This document shows, in pieces, positions 60,865-64,000 of a stretch of DNA of 64,000 nt. The translations under genes and the position numbers were made by a program. Origin of the DNA: Sphingobacteriales bacterium TSM_CSS. Its GTDB lineage: Bacteria > Bacteroidota > Bacteroidia > Chitinophagales > UBA2359. Each line of letters begins with the position of its first letter. Within the stretch, counting starts at the first letter, position 1. The notes below the pieces were generated by a model. The model was not told the origin of the DNA and did not search any database. It worked only from the letters and a program-made list of their open reading frames with translations. Where the stretch lies: positions 1 to 64,000 of the forward strand of contig NBMY01000100.1 of NCBI GenBank assembly GCA_002212985.1, written 5' to 3'.

Positions 60865-60897
60865 TAAAAAAACCTTCCGTGCTGTAAGCAGGAAGGC
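60865..60897 (-). terminator. Terminator of the IS1595-derived gene
   Basis: CCTTCC and GGAAGG form a stem continued by TGCT/AGCA with one bulged base; on the minus strand it is followed by seven T. It lies 57 bases past the stop of the 60954-61616 gene. Confidence 0.85.
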
Positions 60898-60953: not shown

Positions 60954-61616
60954 CTATTTGCGGTTACGGGTGGTTCTGTTCCATTCCGGGCTGTGGTGCG
61001 GCAAAATTTTGAGCACTAATTTTGAAAGATCGCGCCCGTTATTGTTAAATCTGAACTCCAGTTCTTTCAGATACAGGTAGGTATATTCCTCTTTTACCCC
61101 GTAAAATTTGATGAGTTTTTGCTTGGCATACAGAAAAAAGTTAAAAGCAGGCTCATTAATATGCCGCTCTTTATCGGCAGGCAGGACTTCTTTGGCCAAA
61201 GAGGCACTGCCGGGCGGAGCCTGTTGGGCTACTTCTGCATTAAAAATATGTTCGGGTCCGGCATTTTTTATTGAGGTAATTTCTGTATTGTCTCTCAGTT
61301 CACTCACTGTTTCCATTTTTATATACACTTTACCAACGTGTATGGTGAGCGAAAACATTTGCGCATCTTCCTGCGGGGTATAAATTAACCCCTCATTGGT
61401 ATGCCATCCGAAAAAGTATTTCTTATCGTTATTGTGCAAGCTTACTGCTCTTAACTGCACCTCCTGATAATCGGCAATGGCCTCCCGTATCATGCGGTAA
61501 TATTTGTTAATGGTATTGCGATTTATCCTTAATTTTTTTGATGTTTCGGTTGCCGTGATTTCCAGGGCAAAACATGTAATTATCTTCTTGATGTAGTATT
61601 TGCTCAATCCGTTCAT
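60954..61616 (-). CDS. IS1595-type transposase-derived protein lacking catalytic Asp residues
   Basis: A 220-residue intact frame. The N-terminus (LSKYYIKKIITCFALEITATETSKKLRINRNTINKYYRMIREAI) is the helix-turn-helix of IS1595/IS1016 transposases. The C-terminus (HINEPAFNFFLYAKQKLIKFYGV, then YLYLKELEFRFNNNGRDLSKLVLKIL) matches their last domain. Between them only GKVYIKM is recognisable: the usual xDExYFG with the first catalytic Asp is replaced by EVQLRAVSLHNN, and the second-Asp region (TDxxxxY) is gone. It has its own terminator and lies divergent from a giant surface-protein gene, so a DNA-binding role is more likely than transposition. Confidence 0.8.
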   Translation of the reverse strand: MNGLSKYYIKKIITCFALEITATETSKKLRINRNTINKYYRMIREAIADYQEVQLRAVSLHNNDKKYFFGWHTNEGLIYTPQEDAQMFSLTIHVGKVYIKMETVSELRDNTEITSIKNAGPEHIFNAEVAQQAPPGSASLAKEVLPADKERHINEPAFNFFLYAKQKLIKFYGVKEEYTYLYLKELEFRFNNNGRDLSKLVLKILPHHSPEWNRTTRNRK

Positions 61617-62242
61617 TTTAAAGCCAAAAAAAGAGTTAAGAAATGATAGAAATAGTCAAGAAAGAAAAATACGCGAACTAAAAATATGAATATATTTTGA
61701 CAATATCATTACATTTGAGGCGAAAAACGAGGCATTTTTTTGTTCAAGTTTCTAATACATTCAGGCATTAAGAAAAAAAGAACAATTACTTTACTTAGTA
61801 AAATATGCTGTTTGCAACTCTGTACAAAGTAGAGCAATTTTTGTGCCACAAATTAAAAGTCTAAAAAAATTTTACTTTTTTGTGGCAATTGTAAAAAAAA
61901 GCCTACTTTTATACGCATTTACATAGTGCCTTGTTTCTACACAGATGCAAAGCATTTCACCTGTCTTTCTGCTACGGTTTTGCGAAAAACAGCAATAGAA
62001 GGCAGTAATACGCCGGCAAACACCGGCAAAAAGATGAGTCGGTCAAGTAAAAGCAATTTCCGGAAAAAGGGCTGTTCATAGGTATGCAACAGCACTATGC
62101 GGCAGGCAAAATACAAAACCTGTACCGCCTTTTCATTTTAAAGGGAGTTGTAGTGGCCGTTCAGAAATAAATAAGGAAGAAGCACCAGTCGCCATAAACA
62201 ACCGAACAACAATTCTAAACCCTTTCATCCAAACACCAAATT
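61617..62242. other. Long divergent intergenic region with inverted repeat
   Basis: 626 bases between two divergent genes. The left part is very AT-rich; TACATTTG at 61710-61717 fits the -7 pattern, and TACTTTTA near 61904 differs by one base. An inverted repeat is at 61845-61886. From about 61925 the composition becomes ordinary, with three very short frames (17, 15 and 28 codons) and no recognisable gene, suggesting a long leader of the right-hand gene. Confidence 0.55.
61845..61886. repeat. Inverted repeat, possible operator
   Basis: GCCACAAATTAAAAGT is followed after 13 bases by ACTTTTTTGTGGC, its reverse complement apart from a three-base gap. It lies in the AT-rich divergent promoter region, about 230 bases from the transposase-derived gene start and 357 before the giant gene's ATG. 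Not followed by a T run, so an operator is likelier than a terminator. Confidence 0.5.
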
Positions 62243-64000
62243 ATGAATGGCTATTCTTACCATGCAAAACTACCCCCTTCTGCAAAGCTAAACTGCCTTG
62301 CAAGCCACAATCTGCCTTCTACTTATACGTTAAAGGTCTGTTTAAGTTTCGGAGTGCGGTTAAATTTTTTATTTTCTTTGCTCCTGTTGGCCGGCGCACT
62401 TTTAATATCGGGACGGGCAAGCGCCCTGACTGCTATTGACTGTGTAGAATCGCTCCCCATTGCCAACTCCGACTCGGTTGCCGTTTGTCCTCCAACCGAA
62501 GGTGTAAGCATTAATGTACTGGCAAACGATTTACCCACCGAAGCCCCTATACAGGGCATTTATCAAATCTTTTTTACCCCGGCCAATGTGGGTACGCTGA
62601 GTGTAAGCCCCGACTCGCTGTCGCTTATCTATTCGGTAAACAGCGCTTTTTCGGGGCAAGATGTATTTCAATACCAGATTTGGGATGTAAACGGGCTTGT
62701 TTCGGCACCGGCCACCTTAGTAATAACCGGCTTCTGCGACGATAATTCGGGATTTATTGCCGGTGTTGCCTTTTCTGATACCGATGCCGACGGGAGCCAA
62801 AATCCGGGCGAACCCGGACTTCAGGGCATCAGTGTGCAACTGTATAACAGCACGGGCACTTTGCTGCAAACCCTTGCCACCGATGCCGACGGATATTATG
62901 TTTTCTCTGCCCTGCCCGACGGGCAATATCTGGTACAAGTACCCGGCTGGACAGTGCCTGCGGGGCTTAGCCTCACCACTCCTGCACAATACGAAATTAC
63001 CATATCAGGCGGAGGCAGTTTTGTTTTTGCCGATTTCGGGTTTGCTGCCTGTAGCGGTGGCAACCTTCCGCCCGATTTTAGCGATATTTACCTCTGCTCC
63101 AACCCAATATCGCCCATTACCATCTGTATTGGCAGCACTGATGCGCAAGGCGACCCGGTTAGCATTACAGAGGTACACTCCTTGTTTGATTGCGGCATTA
63201 CCATTCTTAATGACACCTGCATACAATACATAGCCCTGCCCGCCTTTTTTGGTATAGATACCCTGCACATTGAAGTATGCGACCAGCATATCAATACCTG
63301 CTCTGGCGGCGGAAGCAGTTCGCTGTGCAGTACGGTAAATGCCATTATTACCGTGCCCTGCCCCAACGCCCAAAACGATGTGGTAAGTACGCCCCTGAAC
63401 ACGGCTATTGCGGTAAATGTACTTGCCAACGATGCCGGTGTGCCGCCGCTTGCAGTTTCTGTTATCGGGCAACCTTCCAACGGCAATGCCGCTACTGTCG
63501 GAAATCAGGTTTTATATACTCCCAACACCGGATTTACCGGAACCGATACCATTACCTACCAAATTACAGACCCAAACGGCAATACCGATGCAGCGCTGGT
63601 AATTGTATATGTTATTCCGGTTGGCGAATTGCCGCCCTCTGCCCAAAACGATAATATTCCCTGCCCGTTCAGCGTATCGGCAGACGGTACGCTTACCCCG
63701 GAACAGGTACTGTTGCCCGTTTTAAACAACGATACCGACCCCAATGCCAATCTATCGGGTATTGTGGCCGTGGGCAACCCTATTTACGGAGCAGCTTCCG
63801 TAGTTTCAGGCAACAGCATCTTATACATTCCCAGCAGCGCCTACCTGTTTGGCAGCATTACAGATGAATTTTACTACGTGGTTGCCGATGCTACCGGACT
63901 TACCGATACTGCCTGGATCACCATTTCCTGCTCGCTAACCCCGGCAACTGCCTGTGTAACGGCTTATCCCAACTTTACCTCTATACCCGCAGGCGGAAGC
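62243..64000 (+). CDS. Very large exported surface protein, 3' end outside window
   Basis: One frame stays open from ATG 62243 to the right edge (586 codons) with no stop, so only the 5' part is here. A hydrophobic signal-like segment (LNFLFSLLLLAGALLISGRASA) starts only at residue 40, after a polar 38-residue tail, so the signal is extended or the start is the GTG at 62354. Domains then follow: cadherin-like/tandem-95 type at about 70-168, SdrD B-like (AFSDTDADGSQNPGEPGLQG, then TDADGYYVFSALPDGQYLV) at about 170-265, and tandem-95 repeats at 375-458 and 466-562. It looks like a giant Bacteroidota adhesin. Confidence 0.85.
   Translation, partial: MNGYSYHAKLPPSAKLNCLASHNLPSTYTLKVCLSFGVRLNFLFSLLLLAGALLISGRASALTAIDCVESLPIANSDSVAVCPPTEGVSINVLANDLPTEAPIQGIYQIFFTPANVGTLSVSPDSLSLIYSVNSAFSGQDVFQYQIWDVNGLVSAPATLVITGFCDDNSGFIAGVAFSDTDADGSQNPGEPGLQGISVQLYNSTGTLLQTLATDADGYYVFSALPDGQYLVQVPGWTVPAGLSLTTPAQYEITISGGGSFVFADFGFAACSGGNLPPDFSDIYLCSNPISPITICIGSTDAQGDPVSITEVHSLFDCGITILNDTCIQYIALPAFFGIDTLHIEVCDQHINTCSGGGSSSLCSTVNAIITVPCPNAQNDVVSTPLNTAIAVNVLANDAGVPPLAVSVIGQPSNGNAATVGNQVLYTPNTGFTGTDTITYQITDPNGNTDAALVIVYVIPVGELPPSAQNDNIPCPFSVSADGTLTPEQVLLPVLNNDTDPNANLSGIVAVGNPIYGAASVVSGNSILYIPSSAYLFGSITDEFYYVVADATGLTDTAWITISCSLTPATACVTAYPNFTSIPAGGS

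Follow-up and report, generated by a model that had tools for sequence, protein, structure and literature searches.

The locus described here raises the question of what an intact gene of transposase ancestry is doing beside, and divergent from, a giant surface-protein gene. The gene, here assigned to group A, lies towards one end of the window (the whole stretch of 64,000 nucleotides that was analysed), and an earlier note on this DNA had described it as a full-length, catalytically degenerate IS1595-type gene that had been domesticated as a DNA-binding protein. The frame is indeed intact, with 220 codons and internal stops absent. The gene, its parts and the hairpin that follows it are listed below, by window coordinates.

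60954–61616, minus strand: group-A gene, 220 aa, an IS1595/IS1016-derived HTH protein that has lost the DDE triad (homology, tree, dN/dS)
61446–61616, minus strand: N-terminal HTH, residues 1–57 (dN/dS 0.013, model)
61158–61286, minus strand: low-confidence linker, residues about 111–153, replacing the half of the RNase-H core that bears D2 (models)
60957–61154, minus strand: conserved C-terminal helices, residues 155–220, KLIKFYGVKEEYTYLYLKELEFRFNN (dN/dS 0.008, alignment)
60866–60896, minus strand: intrinsic-terminator-like hairpin with a T7 tail, about 58 nt past the stop codon (fold)

The gene had also been credited with its own terminator. The hairpin (fold z = -2.3) and its T7 tail are evident by folding and by reading of the sequence, and are absent from the list returned by a consensus terminator scan. 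A sigma-70 scan gave promoter-like sites not above shuffles, sigma-70-type promoters not being the Bacteroidota type.

Descent and loss of the catalytic core

Single-model searches detect just a C-terminal IS1595 remnant, and this under the curated cut-offs. The DDE_Tnp_IS1595 domain (PF12762) matches residues 152–191 with 15.9 bits (cut-off 27), an intact relative scoring 96.6 bits for the same domain, and NF033547 gives 28.6 bits (cut-off 75). When an alignment of ten relatives was compared with seven intact IS1016-type transposases by profile-profile search (hhalign), the match covered 192 columns with a probability of 99.7 and E = 1.6e-25, so that descent of the group-A protein from IS1016-type transposases (IS1595 family) is not in doubt. 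The HTH and the C-terminal IS1595-like domain recognised in the earlier note are both kept. As in the IS1016 subgroup, the N-terminal zinc ribbon is absent and the protein begins at the HTH; it also shares with IS1595/IS1016 transposases the first strands of the RNase-H core and the C-terminal helices. Unlike them, it is without D1, D2 and N, has a linker where the half of the core with D2 would be, has no recognised IS ends, and is encoded by a single gene under purifying selection.

At the D1 column, intact enzymes carry DES[YF]FG and the window protein KKYFFG, and the D2 motif (Y[ST]D.W) is missing, just as had been read from the letters. The degeneracy goes further than had been claimed, since the third catalytic residue and half of the catalytic fold are lost as well. 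The N of the third position (HINGIE) is not kept across the clade formed by group A and its paralogues, group B; the window copy and the relative nearest to it (90%) retain the letters HIN near this position, and other members differ. At all three columns, every A/B member (11 of 11) lacks the catalytic residue.

Structure models were made of the window protein and of an intact relative (pLDDT about 72 for both). The latter has the HTH, three strands, a helix, a strand with D2, a helix, a strand and the C-terminal helices, while the former has the HTH (pLDDT >90 over most of residues 11–50), the first strands, the C-terminal helices, and a low-confidence stretch (117–153) where the D2 half stood. 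Alignment and models together show a catalytic core eroded to what is predicted to be a beta-hairpin remnant and a flexible linker. A PDB fold search with the model gave no match at E<=0.001; its top rows were retroviral integrases, with LuxR-type HTH proteins lower down, an outcome compatible with domestication and not evidence for it.

Selection and distribution

The survey covered 20 genomes of the GTDB family to which the window belongs, within Chitinophagales (G000 being the window's genome). A check of dN/dS had been proposed in the earlier note, and between the window and G002 it gives 0.069 (whole gene; NG86, one genome pair), with near-zero amino-acid change in the HTH (0.013) and the C-terminal part (0.008), and higher values in the beta part (0.081) and the linker (0.166). 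For comparison, the neighbouring CoA-transferase and MutT genes give 0.018 and 0.181, respectively. The window's own genome contains one paralogue (43% identical), and a search of it for an intact IS1595 match found none. Members of the IS1595 family produce an 8-bp target-site duplication (PMC8101967); around the ORF, no credible pair of terminal inverted repeats was recognised.

Genes of the A/B clade occur in 7 of the 20 genomes, spread over 5 genera: group A in G000, G002, G003, G004, G008 and G009, and group B in G000, G001, G002, G003 and G004. In the tree, A and B unite in a single clade with support 100/100, the values for A and B taken singly being 95/96 and 91/75. A scan of GTDB species with two conserved peptides, the outcome of which depends on the two patterns used, confined close relatives to genomes of this Chitinophagales group; further matches were to intact or otherwise different IS1595-type proteins. 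Matching genomes bear the names Chitinophagales, Sphingobacteriales and Bacteroidetes, and are mostly MAGs. With clade-wide loss of the DDE residues, intact frames, a low dN/dS and a genome free of intact IS1595 copies, the proposed domestication of this transposase-derived gene is well supported.

Pairing with a giant adhesin

61617–62242, no strand: divergent intergenic region, 626 bp (gene borders)
62243–64000, and on to the contig end at 66558, plus strand: giant surface-protein gene with SdrD_B and many Big_9 (domain search)

From 62243 onward the window's adhesin frame meets no stop before the contig runs out at 66558, which gives 1438 aa so far, and its readable portion holds SdrD_B and 12 Big_9 stretches; the contig stops inside the gene, which places the 3' end beyond reach in this genome. 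Whether the divergent arrangement recurs was a question raised by the earlier note, and it does: group A stands head-to-head with a giant SdrD_B/Big_9 adhesin gene in four of the five readable loci, in three genera, with gaps of 626 bp (G000), 623 bp (G002), 451 bp (G003) and 629 bp (G009). All four adhesins contain SdrD_B plus 12–18 Big_9 stretches. In G002, G009 and G003 the adhesin has a CHU_C T9SS signal (in G003 at the gene end) and is followed by a PorP/SprF gene. Genes outside this module vary from genus to genus. There are 27–43 CHU_C matches per genome, and those preceding a PorP gene must be far fewer, so that chance is an unlikely explanation for one partner recurring in three genera. 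The mere presence of PorP proved too unspecific to mark the adhesin operon (20 of 20 genomes) and was discarded.

The fifth readable locus is that of G008 (98% complete), where group A has no adhesin alongside; the neighbours, named from their sequences, are a dnaA-like and a polysaccharide-deacetylase-like gene. Conversely, G006 and G015 carry an adhesin-PorP pair with no group A upstream. The link to the adhesin is therefore not obligatory. The G004 locus is unreadable, as its contig terminates 26 bp upstream of the group-A gene; a separate contig of this genome carries an adhesin-PorP pair whose 5' end is open. Group B does not adjoin such adhesins. Two minor observations concern these loci. 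A palindrome, TGTCATGAAAAAATGACA, lies upstream of the G008 group-A gene (L018:2767-3164), and contig G002:C40 (L185:1-2002) carries a second adhesin end together with a PorP gene 94% identical to that of G002:C29; this contig may come from an organism closely related to that of the window.

Candidate operator sites

61653–61660, minus strand: CTTGACTA, candidate operator upstream of the group-A ATG (same offset in relatives)
61870–61887, minus strand: TGCCACAAAAAAGTAAAA, candidate site with 2 mismatches from the group-B motif TGTCATNNAAAAGTAAAA (motif scan)

The motif comparisons were made post hoc, on sequences already seen, and count as leads. A conserved CTTGAYTA precedes the group-A ATG at -44 in G000, -44 in G002, -43 in G009 and -44 in G003, in the form CTTGACTA in the first three and CTTGATTA in G003. 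In a set of 20,000 first-order shuffles, 10 did as well as the three independent lineages in the best agreement of an 8-mer at the same offset (P = 0.0005). By itself CTTGACTA is common (3 in the window vs 0.84 expected), and it is the position that counts. The CTTGAYTA near the group-A start is described here as a candidate operator.

A longer motif, TGTCATNNAAAAGTAAAA, is found upstream of four of the five group-B genes; at <=1 mismatch the family's 20 genomes contain it 47 times, vs 20 for the reversed pattern. The site at 61870–61887 is the window's sole match at <=2 mismatches (P = 0.007 vs shuffles of the adhesin intergenic region), and the corresponding region of G009 has a match within 1 mismatch (0 of 600 shuffles, P<0.002). 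As an operator for group A this motif is weak in G002, where the match has three mismatches (P = 0.058), and G003 has no match (P = 0.45). Unrelated promoters carry it too, as do genomes that lack both groups. A motif TGTCA[TC]NNAAAAGTAAAA was seen upstream of several genes, with four places conserved between G000 and G002 (L189-L203), one of which adjoins an OmpA/PorE-like gene.

Proposed function and alternatives

The group-A protein is probably a former transposase that now regulates transcription. The homology, the lost triad, the purifying selection and the conserved divergent pairing are observed, while DNA binding, a target and a direction of regulation are what we infer: the HTH, once the recogniser of transposon ends, would now bind chromosomal sites, and the C-terminal helices probably serve oligomerisation. 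Its most likely binding place is the long intergenic region, at CTTGAYTA close to the group-A start and possibly further in too. Binding would repress the group-A gene itself (autoregulation) and would switch the divergent T9SS adhesin-PorP/SprF operon, by either repression or activation. Given the conserved head-to-head pair and the long shared regulatory region, the simplest reading is autoregulation combined with control over the divergent operon, and we consider it reasonably likely; for the adhesin gene, control is suggested by the arrangement, by the site before the group-A start and by the shared intergenic motif.

Alternatively, the protein may be a domesticated DNA binder with other or global targets (nucleoid-like, or with a regulon elsewhere), the adhesin being merely an inherited neighbour. 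This would suit G008, which retains the gene without an adhesin, as well as group B, which has the same architecture in unrelated contexts, and the group-B motif, which turns up at a number of other promoters, four of which have it in both G000 and G002. However, the outer neighbours are different ones in each genus, and in three genera the adhesin pairing nonetheless persisted, and CTTGAYTA was retained right by the group-A start; this alternative is, in our judgement, rather unlikely.

A role in DNA transactions other than transcription has less in its favour. C-terminal helices conserved to the same degree as the HTH, and a partner gene rich in repeats, could fit a structural or recombination co-factor that pairs DNA sites without cutting, for example in shuffling or protecting the adhesin repeats, but the catalytic residues and any second nuclease are absent from the module and nothing observed requires recombination, which makes such a co-factor improbable. 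Even less credence, and a disfavoured place, is given to an IS1595 insertion in decay, or to a protein that represses IS1595 transposition in trans. The clear IS1595-type ancestry and the lost triad are what either would predict; against both stand strong purifying selection, conservation of the clade over 5 genera, a genome with no other IS1595 copy that might be the source of decay or the object of control, and the lack of recognised terminal inverted repeats around the ORF.

Relation to known systems

Exaptation of transposases as regulators is well known in eukaryotes. In a limited literature search, no described case was found of a domesticated IS1595 or DDE-transposase-derived regulator in bacteria. 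The preferred reading, an exapted transposase regulating its divergent adhesin operon, works most like that of the TldR proteins, TnpB-derived RNA-guided transcription factors (PMC13418256), in that a bacterial regulator has been exapted from a transposon protein. TldRs differ in being RNA-guided and phage-encoded and in controlling flagellin (PMC13418256), whereas the group-A protein is a DDE-transposase relative with an HTH and adjoins a T9SS adhesin gene. Another preserved IS1595-related transposase with no signs of mobility is the Merlin transposase of Perkinsela; this case is eukaryotic, and its authors suggest domestication, the target gene being unnamed (PMC8101967). In its plan, the partner operon resembles SprB-SprF of Flavobacterium johnsoniae, where a giant repetitive type B adhesin gene is followed by a PorP/SprF gene; PorP/SprF-like proteins retain the type B adhesin that they partner at the surface of the cell, and the portion of the source available mentions no transposase-derived neighbour for SprB-SprF (PMC9143113).

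A small conserved regulator tied to one operon would allow one to ask what the end-binding domain of a domesticated transposase recognises, and the pair would supply a new candidate regulator for T9SS adhesins.

Other IS1595-type relatives

An order-wide search recovered a second DDE-less IS1595-type clade (F) in another Chitinophagales family, f21, where it occurs in 25 of 150 genomes and 14 of 90 genera, as a single copy in all but one genome (L204-L226, L227-L242). Two neighbourhoods recur (gene names read from sequence): one after L25-PTH-FAH-BCKDH-like genes, the other between an MMPL-type transporter and SusC/SusD-like genes. A single origin of A, B and F is not favoured by the tree and not rejected by the AU test (p = 0.096), and for this reason independent domestication is not claimed; a single origin extended to Desulfovibrio-type proteins was rejected (p = 0.013). 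That a bacterial DDE transposase has come to serve as an autoregulated switch dedicated to a T9SS adhesin-PorP/SprF operon, and that the conversion of IS1595 proteins to regulators occurred more than once in Chitinophagales (A/B and F), is a combined proposal that we put forward only tentatively.

Other eroded relatives were also encountered. Zinc-ribbon IS1595 relatives, mostly from Desulfovibrio-like genomes (L047, L051, L056, L058, L074, L092), keep the D2 motif and lack DES[YF]FG and HINGIE, and a Burkholderiales MAG encodes an IS1595-type protein without catalytic residues (L040:868-1488). Genome G058 holds the remnant of a frameshifted IS1595-type transposase (L026:5150-5800), in which ESYFG, STDGW and HINGIE are still legible.
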